Shown here piece after piece: positions 5,015-33,340 of a stretch of 64,000 nt of DNA. The stretch spans positions 1 to 64,000 of the forward strand of contig SVQW01000013.1 of assembly GCA_015065085.1 (NCBI GenBank), given 5' to 3'. Source of the stretch: Oscillospiraceae bacterium (GTDB lineage Bacteria; Bacillota; Clostridia; Oscillospirales; SIG627). The stretch's first letter is position 1, and each line of letters opens with the position of its first letter. The notes under the pieces were generated by a model. The model was given only the letters and a program-made list of their open reading frames with translations. It did not search any database and had not been told where the DNA came from. The translations under genes were made by a program, and so were the position numbers.

Positions 5015-5021
5015 TTCTGAG

Positions 5022-5092
5022 CTGCGGGAGAAGGATTTGAACCCTCACAAACAGAGTCAGAGTCTGTCGTGCTGCCATTACACAATCCCGCA
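5022..5092 (-). tRNA. tRNA-Gln (anticodon CUG)
   Basis: Cloverleaf read by hand on the minus strand. The 7-bp acceptor stem is TGCGGGA (5092-5086) with TCCCGCA (5029-5023), discriminator G at 5022, no encoded CCA. The anticodon stem is ACAGA/TCTGT around loop CTCTGAC, giving anticodon CTG (plus-strand 5058-5060). The T-arm is GAGGG-TTCAAAT-CCTTC. The gene is monocistronic with its own promoter and terminator. A glutaminyl-tRNA synthetase is encoded at 47831-49477. Confidence 0.93.
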
Positions 5093-25788: not shown

Positions 25789-25790
25789 TT

Positions 25791-25823
25791 AATCCCCGCG
25801 GAACAATCAGTTCCACGGGGATT
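25791..25823. terminator. terminator between convergent genes
   Basis: A 14-position stem with one mismatch (AATCCCCGCGGAAC and GTTCCACGGGGATT), loop AATCA. The U-tract is weak on the plus strand. Confidence 0.6.
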
Positions 25824-25825
25824 AT

Positions 25826-26497
25826 TTATACTTTCCTTTTCACAATTTCATTTTGTGACTTCACAATACAGTCGGCAGGGTACACTCCTCTGAGAGAGGT
25901 AAGAGGATAAACCGAAGTGTTCTTGCCTATGACCGTGCCCGGATTAAGAACACATCCGCACCCCACATCTCCGCCGTCACCCACAAATCCTCCGACCTTG
26001 CGAATTCCCGTGAGGTATTCCGATTCACCGTGTATCACCACATTGTCACCATCGGCTTTGAGGTTTGAGCATACCGCACCCGCACCGAGATGTGCACCGT
26101 TTCCCATGACAGAATCGCCCACATAGTTATAGTGAGGAAGCTGTACCTTATCCAGCAGTATGCAGTTTTTCAGTTCGCTGGAATTACCAATGACGCAATT
26201 TTCCCCCGTTATCACATTACCGCGTATGAAAGCCCCGGGGCGGATATGGGTACCGCTTCCGATAACGGCAGGTGCTTCTATTACCGCACCTGCATATATT
26301 TTTACATTTTCACCCGCAAGAACTCCGGGCGAAATTTCCGTAAAGCCATTTACACCCTCTGCCATAAGCTGAACAATGTACTCATTTATATGCCCGAGCA
26401 TCTCCCACGGATATTCATATTTTTCAAAAAACTCCGTAAGATATCCGACTCTGCAATCAAACAGTTCTTTTATCTTTACAAGCTTATTCAACCGCAT
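25826..26497 (-). CDS. left-handed beta-helix acyltransferase, GlmU C-terminal-like
   Basis: About 223 residues. An N-terminal helical part (LVKIKELFDCRVGYLTEFF) leads into hexapeptide repeats (ISPGVLAGENVKIYAGAVI, IRPGAFIRGNVITGENCVIG, GCGCVLNPGTVIGKNTSVYP). The nucleotidyltransferase half of GlmU is missing. Encoded right after glmM, it may acetylate GlcN-1-P or scaffold UDP-GlcNAc synthesis (inference). Start choice is uncertain: the ATG at 26497 has GGAGG only 2 nt away, while a TTG at 26491 has it at 8 nt. Either start overlaps the glmM end, so the two are translationally coupled. Confidence 0.78.
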   Translation of the reverse strand: MRLNKLVKIKELFDCRVGYLTEFFEKYEYPWEMLGHINEYIVQLMAEGVNGFTEISPGVLAGENVKIYAGAVIEAPAVIGSGTHIRPGAFIRGNVITGENCVIGNSSELKNCILLDKVQLPHYNYVGDSVMGNGAHLGAGAVCSNLKADGDNVVIHGESEYLTGIRKVGGFVGDGGDVGCGCVLNPGTVIGKNTSVYPLTSLRGVYPADCIVKSQNEIVKRKV

Positions 26498-28103
26498 GTC
26501 CTCCTTTGATAACGGCATTGGCAACTATGTCCGCGTATTCCTCACATTTTTCCATGCTCTCGCATTCCGTCATTATTCTGATAACGGGCTCAGTGCCGCT
26601 TTTTCTCAAAAGCACCCTGCCCTTTTTGTCTATAAGCTTTTCCACCTCGGCAAGTGCTTCATTTACGCCCTTATCCGATGCCACCGCGTCCTTGTCCTTG
26701 ACACGTATATTCTTCGTATACTGAGGGTACAGCATCACAGGAGAGGCAAGCTCGGATAAAGACAGCTTTGTATCACAAATTTCCTCCGTAATCATTATTG
26801 CGGTTAAAATTCCGTCACCTGTTGTGGCATACTTCTTTATAATAACATGACCCGACTGCTCACCGCCCAGCGCATAGCCCTTTTCCTGCATACGCTCGTA
26901 TACAAATCTGTCGCCCACATTAGTCTGTTCACTCACAATGCCCGCTTTTTCAAGGCTTGAAACGAAACCGCTGTTGGACATAATCGTGGAAACCACCGTG
27001 TTACGGTCAAGCATATCACGTTTTTTCAGACGTGAAGCAAGAATATAAAGTATTTTGTCGCCGTCCACCACTTCTCCGTTTGCATCCACTGCAATACATC
27101 TATCGCCGTCACCGTCAAAGGCAAAGCCGAAATCAAGGTGCTGTTCCTTTACGACCCGACACAGTCTTTCGGTATCGGTGGCTCCGCATTTATGATTAAT
27201 GTTTATTCCGTCCGGCTCGTCGGATATGACTACGGTATGGGCACCCAATGCCGCAAACACCGATTTTGCTATCATCCAGCTTGCGCCGTTGGCGCAGTCA
27301 AGACCTATTCTGAAGTTTTTGTAGGAATGGGATGCAAGCGATATAAGATAGCCTACATATCGGTTTCTTCCGGAGCAGTAGTCGGTTATACACCCCAGCT
27401 TTTCACCCGAAGCGAGAGGCAGATCGTCGCCGTTTATACCCAAAGCCTTCATATCCCCGTCGATATATGATTCAATAAGAGCAGTAGTGGCGTCATCCAG
27501 CTTTTCACCGTAGCGGTTAATCACCTTTATGCCGTTGTCATAAAAGGGGTTATGAGACGCGGTTATCATTATACCGCAGTCAAATTCCTCACGGCAGGTG
27601 ACATATGAAACGCTGGGCGTGGTGGTTACATGAAGCATATACGCATCCGCTCCGGAAGCGGTTATGCCTGCCACAATGGAATATTCCAGCATATAGCTGG
27701 AGCGGCGCGTGTCCTTACCGATGACTATTTTAGGTCGATAACCCGCTTTTGTACAGCCAGAAAGCGGAGAGGAATAATACCAGCCCAGAAACCTGCCTAC
27801 TTTATACGCATGCATGGAAGTAAGTGTTACGTTTGCCTCCCCCCTGAAGCCATCCGTGCCGAAATACCGGTTGGAACGCTTTTGCGCGCATGGTGTGGGG
27901 ATTTCTGTTTTTTCCTGCAATAATTGGTCAGCCGATACATTAAAAAGCTCACAAAGCTGTAAAACCTTATCTATCTGGGGAAGCGCCTGATTCATTTCCC
28001 ATTTTGATACAGATTGTCTTGACACATCCGTTTTTTCTGCAAGCTGTTCCTGAGACATTCCTGCAATTGTACGAAGACGTGCTATTTTTTCTCCTAATTT
28101 CAT
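26484..28103 (-). CDS. glmM: phosphoglucosamine mutase with N-terminal XRE DNA-binding domain
   Basis: About 539 residues. Residues about 3-62 form an XRE/Cro helix-turn-helix (LGEKIARLRTIAGMSQEQLA, TDVSRQSVSKWE). After a short linker, residues 78 to the end are a complete mutase: NRYFGTDGFRG, catalytic serine near 183 in TASHNPFYDNG, metal loop DGDGDR near 330, GGEQSGH near 412 and RKSGTEPVIRI near 500. GlmM alone is about 445 residues. The mutase interconverts GlcN-6-P and GlcN-1-P for wall precursors. The ATG at 28103 has AGGAG 7 nt upstream, so the fused domain is in the translated product. No frameshift separates the parts. Nested palindromes over its promoter hint at self-regulation. 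Confidence 0.9.
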   Translation of the reverse strand: MKLGEKIARLRTIAGMSQEQLAEKTDVSRQSVSKWEMNQALPQIDKVLQLCELFNVSADQLLQEKTEIPTPCAQKRSNRYFGTDGFRGEANVTLTSMHAYKVGRFLGWYYSSPLSGCTKAGYRPKIVIGKDTRRSSYMLEYSIVAGITASGADAYMLHVTTTPSVSYVTCREEFDCGIMITASHNPFYDNGIKVINRYGEKLDDATTALIESYIDGDMKALGINGDDLPLASGEKLGCITDYCSGRNRYVGYLISLASHSYKNFRIGLDCANGASWMIAKSVFAALGAHTVVISDEPDGININHKCGATDTERLCRVVKEQHLDFGFAFDGDGDRCIAVDANGEVVDGDKILYILASRLKKRDMLDRNTVVSTIMSNSGFVSSLEKAGIVSEQTNVGDRFVYERMQEKGYALGGEQSGHVIIKKYATTGDGILTAIMITEEICDTKLSLSELASPVMLYPQYTKNIRVKDKDAVASDKGVNEALAEVEKLIDKKGRVLLRKSGTEPVIRIMTECESMEKCEEYADIVANAVIKGGHAVE

Positions 28104-28121
28104 ACCTTGTCTCCTGTCGTT

Positions 28122-28166
28122 TTGATATATTGTATTTATATTATCAAATACGAGAAAATATATCAA
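28122..28166. promoter_or_regulatory. glmM promoter inside nested inverted repeats
   Basis: Minus strand TTGATA (28166-28161), 17-bp spacer, TAATAT (28143-28138). Outer arms TTGATATATT (28122-28131) and AATATATCAA (28157-28166) are a perfect 10-bp inverted repeat. Inner arms GTATTT (28132-28137) and AAATAC (28146-28151) are a second one. Together they cover -35, spacer, -10 and start point, where a repressor would act. The fused XRE domain is the obvious candidate binder (inference). Confidence 0.55.
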
Positions 28167-28369
28167 CCAACTTTTATATATCTTTTTGGCAACCCAAGGT
28201 TGCGAAATCTTTAAAAAAATACGTTTTCTGTAATCATAACCGAAAAATCACACACTTTTCGCAAATCAAGCTTTGCGCTTTCCAAAATTACCGCAGGTAT
28301 CTGAAAAGCTCTTTTCCATCCGACGAAAAATAAGTTTCATTATTATATAAATAAATTTTCCAAAAACTA

Positions 28370-28426: not shown

Positions 28427-28452
28427 GAAAGAGTGGTTCGCGCCACTCTTTC
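28427..28452 (+). ncRNA. rimP leader hairpin
   Basis: A perfect 10-bp stem GAAAGAGTGG/CCACTCTTTC with loop TTCGCG lies 9 bases before the rimP Shine-Dalgarno, within a leader of about 70 nt. Similar GAGTGG-type hairpins before rimP recur in Firmicutes as far as I recall; a role in NusA- or RimP-linked feedback or early termination is inference. Confidence 0.5.
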
Positions 28453-28474
28453 AAGTTTTATAAGGAGGTTTTTA

Positions 28475-28966
28475 ATGGCGAACAAAAAAAGTGCTGCATC
28501 TCCTAAAAATATTGCGGGGCTGGTGGAAACTCTGGTGCGCGATACGGTGGAAAAACTGGGCTACACCCTGTGGGATGTGGACTATTCCAAGGAAGGTGTA
28601 GACTGGAATCTCACCGTTTTTATTGACAAACCGGGAACGGAAATCGGTATTGACGACTGTGTAACAGTACATCATGCCATCGACCCCATTATTGACGAAG
28701 CAGACCCTATCAAAGACTTTTACTATCTCCAGGTTTCCACAGCGGGAATTGAGCGTACGCTTACAAGACCCGAGCACTATGAGCTTTACGCGGGAAAAGA
28801 GATAGACATAAAATTCTTTGCACCGCAGGAAATAGAGGGTGTAAAGCTCAAGAGTCTGCGTGCAGTCCTGGAAAAATACGAAAACAAAATTATTACTATA
28901 AACTACGAAGGGAAAATATTCGAGCTTGACGAAGCGGTATGTGCTTCGGTAAAGAGCGCCGAATAA
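28475..28966 (+). CDS. rimP: ribosome maturation factor RimP
   Basis: About 163 residues, normal length. It assists 30S subunit maturation. LWDVDYSKEGVDWNLTVFID and DPIKDFYYLQVSTAGIERTL fit the N-terminal domain, followed by the SH3-like C-terminal domain. I start at the ATG at 28475 behind AAGGAGG; an earlier in-frame start would lie in the leader hairpin. It is first in the translation operon. Confidence 0.93.
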   Translation: MANKKSAASPKNIAGLVETLVRDTVEKLGYTLWDVDYSKEGVDWNLTVFIDKPGTEIGIDDCVTVHHAIDPIIDEADPIKDFYYLQVSTAGIERTLTRPEHYELYAGKEIDIKFFAPQEIEGVKLKSLRAVLEKYENKIITINYEGKIFELDEAVCASVKSAE

Positions 28967-28982
28967 GGGTACGAGAAAAAAT

Positions 28983-30056
28983 ATGAACAATGAATTTTTC
29001 ACAGCACTGGACCTTTTGGAAAGCGAGAAAGGCATTTCAAAGGAATACATGTTGGAGAAGGTCGAAGCCGCACTCCAGGCGGCATACAAAAAGGACGTTC
29101 CGAACGGCTCCAATGTACGTGTGGTAATCGACCCCGTAAAAAAGGACGTCAAGATGTATCAGCAGAAAACGGTTGTTGAATCGGTAACCGATGAAGCCAC
29201 CGAAATAACCCTCGAGGCAGCTCACAAGGTGAGCAAACGCCTTAAGCTGGGCGACATTGCCGATGTGGAGATAAAGCCCAAGAATTTCGGACGTATCTCT
29301 GCACAGACTGCGAAGCAGGTTATAATCCAGGGCATTCGCGAAGCCGAGAGAGAGCTTATGGTTAAGGAATATGAGTCCAAGAAGGACGACATTCTCACCG
29401 CCATGGTAACAAAAATTGATCCCCTCAGCGGAAACGCAGTGCTGGAAATCGGCAAAAATCAGGCTACTCTCATTAAAAACGAACAGATTCCCGGCGAGGA
29501 TCTGAGAGTGGGCGACAGAATCAAGGTTTACGTAAACGAAGTTAAGAAAGAGACCAAAGGTCCCATAGTAATTCTTTCCAGAAGCAATCCCGGTCTTGTT
29601 AAAAGACTGTTCGAGCTTGAAATACCCGAAATACGCGACGGCACGGTAATCATTCACTCTATCTCCCGTGAAGCGGGAAGCCGTACCAAAATTGCAGTTT
29701 ATTCCAGAGACCCCGATGTAGACGCAATCGGCTCCTGCATTGGTCCCAAGGGTATGAGAAAAGCAGGCATCATGAATGAAATAGCGGGCGAAAAGATAGA
29801 CATCATCGAATACAGTGAAAGCCCGGAGGAATTCATCAAGGCGGCACTCTCCCCCGCTACCGTTCAGAGTGTTACCATTACCGAGCCCAAGTGCTGCCGT
29901 GTAATTGTTGACAACGATCAGCTTTCCCTGGCAATCGGCAAAAAGGGTCAGAATGCAATGCTTGCGGCAAGACTTACCGGCTTCAAGATAGATATCAAAT
30001 CTCCTGAAATGGCGGCACAGGAAGCAGCTTCGGGCAACGGAGATGTTGAAGAATAA
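28983..30056 (+). CDS. nusA: transcription elongation/termination factor NusA
   Basis: 357 residues, the Firmicutes short form lacking the C-terminal acidic repeats. N-terminal RNA-polymerase-binding domain, S1 domain near 135-200, then two KH domains (DPDVDAIGSCIGPKGMR, LSLAIGKKGQNAMLAARLTG). It sits 16 bp after rimP; its stop overlaps the ylxR start by one base (TAATG). Confidence 0.96.
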   Translation: MNNEFFTALDLLESEKGISKEYMLEKVEAALQAAYKKDVPNGSNVRVVIDPVKKDVKMYQQKTVVESVTDEATEITLEAAHKVSKRLKLGDIADVEIKPKNFGRISAQTAKQVIIQGIREAERELMVKEYESKKDDILTAMVTKIDPLSGNAVLEIGKNQATLIKNEQIPGEDLRVGDRIKVYVNEVKKETKGPIVILSRSNPGLVKRLFELEIPEIRDGTVIIHSISREAGSRTKIAVYSRDPDVDAIGSCIGPKGMRKAGIMNEIAGEKIDIIEYSESPEEFIKAALSPATVQSVTITEPKCCRVIVDNDQLSLAIGKKGQNAMLAARLTGFKIDIKSPEMAAQEAASGNGDVEE

Positions 30057-30337
30057 TGCAGCAGGTTCAAAAGAAATCACCTGAAAGGCGCTGTACAGGA
30101 TGCGGTGAAACAAGACTTAAAAAGGACCTCATACGTGTACTGCGCGCTCCCGACGGCACACTGTCCGTTGACACTACGGGCAAAAAATCCGGCAGAGGAG
30201 CATATATCTGTAACAAAAAAGAATGCTTTATAAAGGCAAAAAAGTCACGACGTATCGAAAGCAGTCTCAAATGTCAGATATCAGATGAGCTTTACAATCA
30301 GCTTGAACAGCAGATTGAGGTGTCATCGGATGAATAG
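30056..30337 (+). CDS. ylxR: YlxR/RnpM-family RNA-binding protein
   Basis: 93 residues with the family signature RRCTGCGETRLKKDLIRVLR and SGRGAYICNKKECF. In Bacillus the homologue has been reported to bind RNase P RNA. Overlaps nusA by 1 base and ylxQ by 8 bases, so it is translationally coupled on both sides. Confidence 0.93.
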   Translation: MQQVQKKSPERRCTGCGETRLKKDLIRVLRAPDGTLSVDTTGKKSGRGAYICNKKECFIKAKKSRRIESSLKCQISDELYNQLEQQIEVSSDE

Positions 30338-30668
30338 CGAGATAAAAGCTCCCGACCGCGTTTTAAGCTCAATCGGGCTTGCCAAACGGGCAGGTAAAAC
30401 AGTCACCGGCACCGAGCTTGTTCAGGACGCTGTAAGAAAAGGTAAAGCAAAAATCGTCATTGCTGCATCTGATATTTCGCAGGGAAGCAAAAAAAAGCTG
30501 GTTAACACCTGCGTGTACTACAAAGCAGAGCTTGTGGAGTACTCCGACATGAAATCGCTTTCGGCAGCCATGGGCGTCAAAAAGCTCATAACCTCTGTGG
30601 CTGTAACAGATGAAAACTTTAAAATACTTATAAAAAAACAGCTCTCCGTTATGACGGAAAATGATTGA
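30330..30668 (+). CDS. ylxQ: L7Ae-like ribosome-associated protein (YlxQ)
   Basis: About 112 residues. The L7Ae/L30e pattern is [24 protein letters not shown], then [14 protein letters not shown]. The family recognises kink-turn RNA. I use the ATG at 30330, overlapping the ylxR end, with GAGGTG upstream. Confidence 0.9.
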
Positions 30669-30682
30669 TAAGGTGGGATTAT

Positions 30683-33340
30683 ATGTCCGCAGATACTAAG
30701 AACAAAATTAACACACTTGCCAAAGATTTTGGCGTTAAAAGCAAAGATCTGGTTAAAATATTCGAGGACAACGGAATGGACGTTAAGAACAGAATGTCCG
30801 CTCTGCGTGACGAAGAGGTAAACTTCGCATATGAATATTTTTCCAAAGCTACTCCCGTCGAGGATATCGACAAATACCTTTCAGGTGAGATAAAGGTAAA
30901 TTATCCCGACACCGCACTCGAAAAGAAGGATAAAAAGCCCGATCCGGCAAAGGAAGAAAAACCGGTTGAAAAGCCTGTTGCCGATAAGAAGGCGTCAGAG
31001 GAAAAAGTACCCGAAAAGAAGCAGTCTGCCAACAAGCAACCCGAAAAAATGCCCGCAAATGCGGAAAAAGCCGCTCACTCCAAGGACGACAAAAAGCCCG
31101 CAGCACAGCAGAATCAACCCAAAAAGCCCGCGGATAACCGTCCTCAGCAGGCTCAGCACGTCAGCAAGAATACTCAGGCGAAAAACGACCGTCCCGCACA
31201 GCAGGTGCATGGTGACAGACCTCCCGTTAAGAAGCCCGAGCCTCAGAGCGCTATTGACAAATTTACCCAGAAGGTAGGAAAGAGCCAGCCTCAGCAACAG
31301 AATCAGCCCAAAAAGCCCGCCGAACAGCAAAATCAACCCAAAAAGCCTCAGAACACCATTAACAGAACCGCGCAGGGCTTTGCGGATGTTACCAAGAATG
31401 TTCGCGTTGTCGATACAAGAGGTACAGAGGTAGACCTTTCCAAATACGATGACAAGCTTCTTGACCACATGAACGATGGACGCCGCGGCGACAATGACGG
31501 CGGAAAGCAGAAATTCAAGAAGAACAATGGCCGTCCCGACAGAAAGCCCGGCTTCAAGAAAAAGAGCGAGCCTATCAAGCCTCAGCTCCCTTCTGTAATC
31601 ACTCTTCCCGACCAGATGATAGTTTCCGACCTTGCACGTGAGCTTCATATCACCACCGCACAGGTTGTCAAGAAGCTTATGACTCTGGGTATGATGGTTA
31701 CTCTCAACCAGTCCATCGACTTTGACACCGCCGCAATCGTTGCGGACGAATTCGGTGTAAAGGCTGAAAAGATTGTTGTTGTCACCATTGAGGAAAAGCT
31801 TATCGACGAACACGAGGACACCAGCGAAGAACTGGTTGAAAGAAGTCCTGTTGTGTGCGTTATGGGTCACGTTGACCACGGTAAGACCTCTCTGCTTGAC
31901 GCTATCCGCCATGCAAACGTTACTGCAGGCGAAGCGGGCGGTATAACACAGCACATCGGTGCGTACCGCGTAAGCATAAACGGAAAGGACATCACTTTCC
32001 TTGACACCCCCGGTCACGAGGCGTTCACAGCAATGCGTGCAAGAGGTGCTCAGGCTACCGATATCGCAATTCTGGTTGTTGCGGCAGATGATGGTATCAT
32101 GCCTCAGACCATAGAAGCTATAAATCATGCAAAAGCGGCAGGTGTATCCATTATCGTTGCCATCAACAAGATAGATAAACCTGCAGCAAACGTCGAAAAT
32201 GTCAAAACAGAGCTTACAAAATATGAACTTGTTCCCGAGGAATGGGGCGGCGATGTTATCTGCGTGCCCGTTTCGGCAGTTACAAAGCAGGGTATCGATG
32301 ACCTTCTTGAAAACGTACTTCTCGTGGCGGAGGTTGCCGAGCTTAAGGCAAACCCCAACCGTGCCGCAAAGGGTATCGTTATAGAAGCAAAGCTGGATAA
32401 GGGCAGAGGTCCCGTTGCTACCGTACTGGTACAGAACGGTACTCTCCATGCAGGCGACACCGTTATTGCAGGTACTTGCGTAGGACGTATCCGTGCCATG
32501 ACAAATGACAAGGGTGAAACCGTTAAGGAAGCAGGTCCCTCGGTTCCTGTTGAGATACTTGGTCTTTCCGATGTTCCGGGCGCAGGCGACATTTTCAACG
32601 CAGTAAGCGACGAAAGAATGGCAAGAGAGCTTGCACAGCAGCGCCGCGACAAGGAAAAAGAGGAAGAATTCATGCAGAACTCCAAGGTATCGCTGGATGA
32701 CCTCTTCAACCAGATAAAGGACGGCGTCAAGGAGCTTAACATTATCGTTAAGGCTGACGTTCAGGGCTCTGCCGAGGCTGTCAAGGCATCTCTCGAAAAG
32801 ATTTCCAACGAGGAAGTACGCGTCCGCGTTATCCACAGCGGTGTAGGTGCCATACGTGAAAATGACGTTATGCTTGCCGCCGCTTCCAACGCCATCATTG
32901 TCGGCTTCAACGTACGTCCCGACAAGGGTGCAATCGATTCTGCCGAAAGACAGCAGGTCGACATGAGAACTTACAGAATAATCTACGAATGCATTGAAGA
33001 AATCACCGCCGCTATCAATGGTATGTTGGCTCCCAAGTTCAAGGAAGTCATTCTGGGTACCGCTGAAGTGCGTCAGACCATTCATGTTCCCAACGTAGGC
33101 ACCATCGCCGGTTCATATGTTACCGACGGTAAGGTTACACGTAACGCAGGCATCCGTATTGTCCGTGACGGCATAGTTATCTTTGAGGACAAGATTTCCT
33201 CTCTGCGCCGTTTCAAGGATGACGTCAAGGAAGTTGCACAGGGCTATGAATGCGGTATAGGTCTTGAAAAGTACAACGATATCAAGATCGGCGACGTATT
33301 CGAGGCATTCATGATGGAAGAAATTAAAGCAGGTGAATAA
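30683..33340 (+). CDS. infB: translation initiation factor IF-2
   Basis: About 885 residues. Short N-terminal IF2_N domain ([20 protein letters not shown]). A disordered K/P/Q-rich linker (about 75-280) carries QQNQPKKP three times. A second IF2_N unit ([17 protein letters not shown]) follows, then the GTPase: GHVDHGKTS near 395, [12 protein letters not shown]. The C-terminal initiator-tRNA-binding domain is intact. It brings fMet-tRNA to the 30S subunit. Start ATG at 30683 behind AAGGTGG; a TTG six codons earlier overlaps ylxQ and is less likely. Confidence 0.96.

Follow-up and report, generated by a model that had tools for sequence, protein, structure and literature searches.

Can an enzyme that supplies a cell wall precursor also govern the transcription of its own gene? 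This question is raised by one open reading frame in a 64,000-nucleotide stretch of contig SVQW01000013.1 from an Oscillospiraceae bacterium (the window, i.e. the whole stretch analysed). A sequence-only reading had proposed that this frame joins an XRE-type helix-turn-helix (HTH) to a complete phosphoglucosamine mutase (GlmM) with all its motifs, and that the product, here called XRE-GlmM, might be a metabolite-sensing regulator. Our work confirms the architecture: The frame runs on the minus strand from an ATG at position 28103 to a TAA stop at 26484-26486 and encodes 539 residues. Residues 7-61 match HTH_3 (Pfam PF01381) with 51.9 bits against a cut-off of 23, the PGM_PMM domains I, II, III and IV each exceed their Pfam cut-offs across residues 79-529, and the score with the GlmM equivalog of NCBIfam (TIGR01455) is 494.3 bits at a cut-off of 447.55. 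The motifs TASHN, DGDGDR, GEQSGH and RKSGTEP, which we take to be the catalytic motifs of GlmM, are found at residues 181, 330, 414 and 500; TASHN is unchanged across 81 fused sequences, and its Ser183 is presumably the phosphoserine position. Judged by these motifs and the equivalog score, the protein is a complete mutase with predicted enzyme activity. Ordinary GlmM as defined by TIGR01455 has the same mutase fold and motifs but lacks the HTH, and accordingly the best PDB matches, GlmM of B. subtilis (7OJR), B. anthracis (3PDK) and S. aureus (6GYZ), align from residue 77-79 onward only. An AlphaFold2 model built from 38 aligned sequences (mean pLDDT 85.0) has the GlmM fold in the mutase part and five short helices of moderate confidence in the HTH (block pLDDT 66-88), joined by a linker of low confidence. 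Since the next relatives of the mutase part in the source genome (2.45 Mb, 95% complete) are just 25-26% identical, XRE-GlmM is the sole GlmM found there. The features discussed here are collected in Table 1.

Table 1. Features of the XRE-GlmM locus, in window coordinates.
Feature	Position	Strand	Basis
XRE-GlmM fusion gene	26484..28103	-	539 codons plus stop; Pfam, NCBIfam, reading of the frame
XRE helix-turn-helix, residues 1-62	27918..28103	-	HTH_3 match, conservation, five modelled helices
Variable linker, residues 63-78	27870..27917	-	Entropy 2.51 bits (residues 62-78); pLDDT <50 at residues 70-76
Phosphoglucosamine mutase part, residues 79-539	26487..27869	-	Pfam, NCBIfam and PDB matches
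Ser183 codon in TASHN, predicted phosphoserine	27555..27557	-	Invariant in 81 fused sequences
Ribosome site AGGAGA, 6 nt ahead of the HTH ATG	28110..28115	-	Sequence reading
Predicted operator O1, GCAACCTTGGGTTGC on the minus strand	28189..28203	.	No other match in the window (0.04 expected); found again ahead of fused genes
Right half of predicted O2, AGTTGGTTGA	28163..28172	-	Recurrence; left half degenerate here
Predicted promoter: TTGATA 28166-28161, 17 nt, TAATAT 28143-28138, TG before the -10	28138..28166	-	9 of 12 matches; such matches by themselves are no evidence
GlmU-like left-handed beta-helix protein, probable GlcN-1-P acetyltransferase	25826..26497	-	14-nt overlap with the end of glmM
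Terminator-like stem after the second gene	25790..25824	-	Sequence reading

Two trivial explanations for such a fusion had been considered from the outset: an assembly error that joins two genes, and translation from the mutase part alone. Both are ruled out. The same architecture recurs on many contigs and in many species; moreover, the good ribosome site precedes the HTH rather than the mutase, as had been noticed before, none is seen in the 30 nt ahead of the internal Met37, and purifying selection acts on the HTH codons. In 17 pairs hand-picked among close tree neighbours (locus L080 was used in two), the HTH has a pN/pS of 0.112, compared to 0.086 in the mutase and 0.236 in the linker. 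Across the 81 fused sequences, entropy averages 0.96 bits over residues 1-61 and 0.85 bits over residues 79-530, with the linker between them far more variable (Table 1), and L10, R11, Q18, R29, W35 and E36 of the HTH are invariant. Mean pairwise identity reaches 88% in residues 29-37, the recognition helix as judged from the alignment and the model, as compared to 68% for the HTH and 71% for the mutase. The low pN/pS of the HTH together with its conservation indicates that the domain is retained for its protein sequence. One database copy of the gene (P0002, 503 aa) begins at Met37 inside the HTH (window 27995-28103), which looks like a gene-calling artefact; thus, annotation can hide the fusion.

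How far does this architecture extend? Database searches, as the sequence-only reading had suggested, found that it recurs. Among the best 80 of 355 related loci, which were retained, 75 are fused and 5 unfused; nearly all come from gut metagenome assemblies under the titles Clostridia or Oscillospiraceae, plus a second group with titles that are mostly Bacilli, Bacillales or Erysipelotrichaceae. Full-length fusions occur in 8 of the 22 family genomes, where a contig end truncates one more, in 18 of 197 at the level of the order (rows beginning at query residue 1), and in a single genome of a phylum-wide draw of 398, the source genome itself (cut-off E 1e-140). The fusion is therefore confined to this order and a few related groups. 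Among the matches listed (120 of 7996 scored proteins), HTH families stand beside the mutase domains in 119, P0002 being the exception. The locus counts leave out L060 and L065, which share contigs with L007 and L009, the copies L143 and L146 of L042 and L063, and L013, in which the gene is cut by a contig end.

If the HTH is kept as a protein domain, what might it bind? The regions upstream of fused genes have a palindrome in common, GCAACY-N3-RGTTGC (O1), that was first spotted by eye. Its core, GCAAC-N5-GTTGC, occurs exactly and once per locus in 53 of 101 loci, all of them among the 83 fused ones (L060 and L065 are included in these counts); every one of these sites lies at most 400 nt upstream of the gene, and none is found elsewhere in the 739 kb of loci. 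With up to one mismatch and within 200 nt upstream, O1 is present in 73 of the 91 distinct fused loci (66 of 70 in the clostridial clade, 7 of 21 in the second clade). Among 25 unfused loci one has it, as a decayed copy where the gene lost its HTH; in shuffled upstream regions of fused genes, its frequency is 0.27%. Loci fetched after the pattern had been fixed gave a match within 500 nt in 7 of 10 fused and 0 of 17 unfused cases. The three misses are L151 and L152, which have a one-mismatch O1, and L154, which carries an exact GCAAC-N5-GTTGC without the Y. L152 additionally carries GCAAAC-N5-GTTGC, another O1-like sequence, located between promoter and fused gene. A palindrome so closely tied to the HTH makes specific binding of O1 by XRE-GlmM likely.

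The palindrome might alternatively serve as an RNA element, a terminator or a leader hairpin: O1 can fold as a 5-bp stem, and in the second-clade loci L078-L082 it would be transcribed. We hold this to be extremely improbable, since the clostridial O1 lies upstream of the predicted promoter and the T-runs come before and the A-runs after O1 on both strands, which is the wrong order for a terminator. No Rfam family reaches its cut-off at O1, and with the position and the order of the runs this leads us to reject a terminator or riboswitch reading. It is also very unlikely that O1 is used by a DNA-binding protein other than XRE-GlmM. Such a protein might be sought among the further XRE-type HTH matches in the source genome, and strict-type sites do occur in some genomes without a found fused GlmM; yet the palindrome stands upstream of fused and not of unfused genes, it is missing or decayed at six losses of the HTH, and the upstream neighbours of the gene differ among the loci.

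Binding of O1 by XRE-GlmM would have few targets in the source genome. Seven exact GCAAC-N5-GTTGC sites are present there, the form with Y and R only at glmM, and if one mismatch is allowed, 39 sites face 35 for a reversed-pattern control; two further KCAACY-N3-RGTTGC sites both lie within ORFs. A wide O1 regulon can therefore be rejected for this genome, and XRE-GlmM is probably an autoregulator here rather than the head of a wide regulon. In the family, 13 of 21 genomes contain KCAACY-N3-RGTTGC. Five of the 17 sites examined adjoin GlmM; among the remaining 12, seven are located outside any ORF of at least 120 aa, and the fused genomes G002, G007 and G010 account for one apiece. Strict O1-type sites outside such ORFs and distant from glmM were noted in L131 (G002) and L122 (G010). 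Such sites in fused genomes make second targets in relatives possible.

The history of the gene provides a further view of the link between HTH and operator. In a tree calculated from the mutase part alone (115 rows; L154, with an unmatched motif pattern, was omitted from the tree only), 90 fused rows form one group (SH-aLRT 99) with six unfused rows nested within it. The fused and unfused states require seven changes, and this suggests one gain followed by about six losses of the HTH as the simplest history, on a tree that was made quickly and has many weak forks and some long branches. Five of the six nested losses are without O1, and the sixth, L155, has GCAGCCAGCGGTTGC, one change off O1. 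Searching as much as 1.5 kb ahead of each of the six nested unfused genes revealed no HTH remnant (best E 0.33). At the base of the group, the deepest fused rows, L150-L153, have O1 or its one-mismatch form. An independent-pairs test with five supported pairs gave a mean of 3.8 in agreement and 0 in disagreement (p 0.125); with just five such pairs, the pairing of HTH and O1 is consistent yet not significant.

Does the protein, then, repress or activate? About 22 bp downstream of the O1 centre follows a weaker second site, O2 (TCAA-N6-AGTTGsTTGA). Its right half occurs in 54 of 67 loci, as compared to 0.58 expected from shuffles, and starts 15-18 nt after O1 in 52 of the 54. In the clostridial loci, this right half overlaps the -35 region, and an extended -10 then follows. 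Activators can sit upstream of and over the -35 region, and the clostridial O1 and O2 are placed in just this manner; this geometry could thus also allow XRE-GlmM to recruit RNA polymerase to its own promoter. We consider such autoactivation unlikely: the -35 and the extended -10 look usable unaided, and in L078-L082 O1 sits between the -10 and the gene, a blocking position that fits repression. This position together with O2 over the -35 favours repression. The second clade differs in a further respect: In 20 of 21 of its upstream regions (L077-L101) a dyad GTAA-N7-9-TT(T/A)AC is found further upstream; the pattern is loose, and 13 of 70 clostridial loci have it too. Within this clade, L077 carries GTAACTAAACGTTAC at the O1 position of its sisters; both half-sites are altered alike, as if operator and protein were drifting together.

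These observations lead us to the reading that we favour with good confidence: XRE-GlmM likely binds O1 and the weaker O2 and represses its own amino-sugar operon, and the sugar-phosphate or phosphoserine state of the mutase is predicted to loosen its grip. Dimers would occupy O1 and O2 and block the promoter, and filling of the active site or dephosphorylation of the serine might alter, via the variable linker, how the two HTHs are held. The serine of GlmM carries a phosphate during catalysis, and the phosphorylation state is as good a candidate for the signal as the substrate. As for the initial proposal, the idea of an intact mutase that doubles as a DNA-binding regulator at its own promoter is now well supported, if indirectly, by the conservation of the HTH, the upstream palindrome, and its absence or decay where the HTH was lost. 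The second idea, that XRE-GlmM reports amino-sugar phosphate levels, is plausible; feedback by amount only would leave identical traces. In that case XRE-GlmM would repress the operon via O1 with no metabolite sensed, and the level of GlmM would be kept steady. We regard this as a serious contender, on balance doubtful: The evidence from HTH, operator and their joint loss fits it equally, and the linker is variable. Moreover, in a synthetic BzdR-type chimera the repressor was not released by the substrate in vivo, since catalysis prevented this (PMC3602430). An operon with further genes of the pathway, often nagB, fits control by a metabolite without proving it.

Enzymes with a built-in HTH repressor are already known, and NadR of the Enterobacterales is the nearest to XRE-GlmM. 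As described in the excerpts of PMC12421817 available to us, NadR likewise joins an N-terminal HTH repressor to active enzyme domains from the pathway under its control; it differs in serving the NAD pathway with an NMN adenylyltransferase and a ribosylnicotinamide kinase rather than a phosphohexomutase, and in that its sensing has been tested, whereas for XRE-GlmM sensing is a prediction. XRE-GlmM shares this enzyme-repressor layout, an HTH fused to an enzyme with intact motifs. BzdR, according to the available portion of PMC3602430, also combines an N-terminal XRE HTH, a linker and a C-terminal domain with an enzyme fold, but this is a shikimate-kinase fold, and natural BzdR has lost its activity. 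The same portion describes a synthetic bifunctional chimera, Q1, that retained enzyme activity and repressed; the substrate released this repressor in vitro, and turnover prevented the release in vivo. In XRE-GlmM, by contrast, the motifs are intact, and no other GlmM was found in its genome. XRE-GlmM does not belong to the BzdR/BoxR proteins: its C-terminal part is PGM_PMM and not shikimate kinase-like, and PRK08154 matches only the HTH (22.2 bits, cut-off 204). Among the listings of open-licence PMC papers searched, none was found to describe a GlmM-HTH fusion.

Which genes would be under this control? In the source genome XRE-GlmM is probably the autoregulator of an operon with glmM and a gene for a probable GlcN-1-P acetyltransferase, elsewhere often also nagB and rarely glmS. 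The acetyltransferase-like protein scores under the curated cut-offs of the GlmU models; it probably has this function since the best GlmU match of the genome spans the uridylyltransferase part only (residues 1-238 of 452). Such a gene lies at most 200 nt downstream in 75 of the 91 fused loci; the same holds for 3 of the 6 nested unfused loci and for 4 of 19 sister and outgroup loci. nagB is present within 3 kb in 37 of the 91 fused loci and glmS in five (71 of the 91 have at least 1.6 kb of downstream sequence). The source genome has NagB (TIGR00502, 396.5 bits), encoded away from the glmM operon, and neither GlmS nor the glmS ribozyme (RF00234) was found in it.

The glmS ribozyme exerts feedback control on the same pathway, unlike XRE-GlmM as an RNA that acts on glmS. 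It is tempting to speculate that the active site of XRE-GlmM, where GlcN-6-P is converted to GlcN-1-P, sets the occupancy of the operator and so acts as a wall-sugar gauge, and that where gut lineages have lost GlmS and depend on NagB or on salvage of amino sugars, the point at which peptidoglycan precursor supply is controlled has shifted from glmS to GlmM; about this we are of two minds, leaning slightly to doubt. Full-length GlmS was counted by eye in 7 of 18 fused genomes vs 15 of 16 unfused close relatives (without G165, a fragment lacking GlmS, and G166, a nested loss with GlmS), a contrast inflated by the lower completeness of the fused genomes (80-99%) relative to most unfused ones. 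One of the seven, G155, may be contaminated since an ordinary GlmM adjoins its GlmS. A strict exclusion of GlmS by the fusion is ruled out by these seven genomes. GlmS is above the cut-off in 120 of the 197 genomes of the order; its full-length form is commonly lost or absent in these lineages, fused or unfused. Replacement of the ribozyme by the fusion is unsupported as well, with the ribozyme in 2 of 18 fused genomes vs 2 of 16 unfused relatives; none reaches the Rfam cut-off at L030, L035, L067, L070 and L150, the loci with glmS downstream near the fused gene. In Akkermansia, which is devoid of GlmS, NagB formed no GlcN-6-P under physiological conditions, hence its need for GlcNAc, as stated in the available part of PMC5902328.

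Enzymes that turned into regulators are mostly encountered when their activity is already gone, apart from a few textbook cases. Here, an enzyme of peptidoglycan precursor synthesis that is presumably essential seems to serve as the transcription factor of its own gene across a clade of gut bacteria. Since its operator can be named base by base and there are lineages without HTH and operator, the route from enzyme to regulator becomes testable in nature. XRE-GlmM also points to a way in which wall-sugar supply could be balanced in bacteria that have neither GlmS nor the glmS ribozyme.

Some minor observations concern the surroundings of the gene. In L072, a 99-residue ORF between O1 and the fused gene, about 30-330 nt before its start, bears pieces of GlmS: as compared to the GlmS of L067, it is 44% identical to residues 1-27 and 57% identical to residues 583-610. 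This ORF reads as a decayed relic of glmS, although a fault of the metagenome assembly could also have produced it. In the window, positions 28433-33340 hold the divergent neighbour rimP (Pfam RimP_N), followed by nusA- and infB-like frames as judged from the order of the ORFs, and a tRNA-Gln (CTG) is located on the minus strand at 5021-5092.
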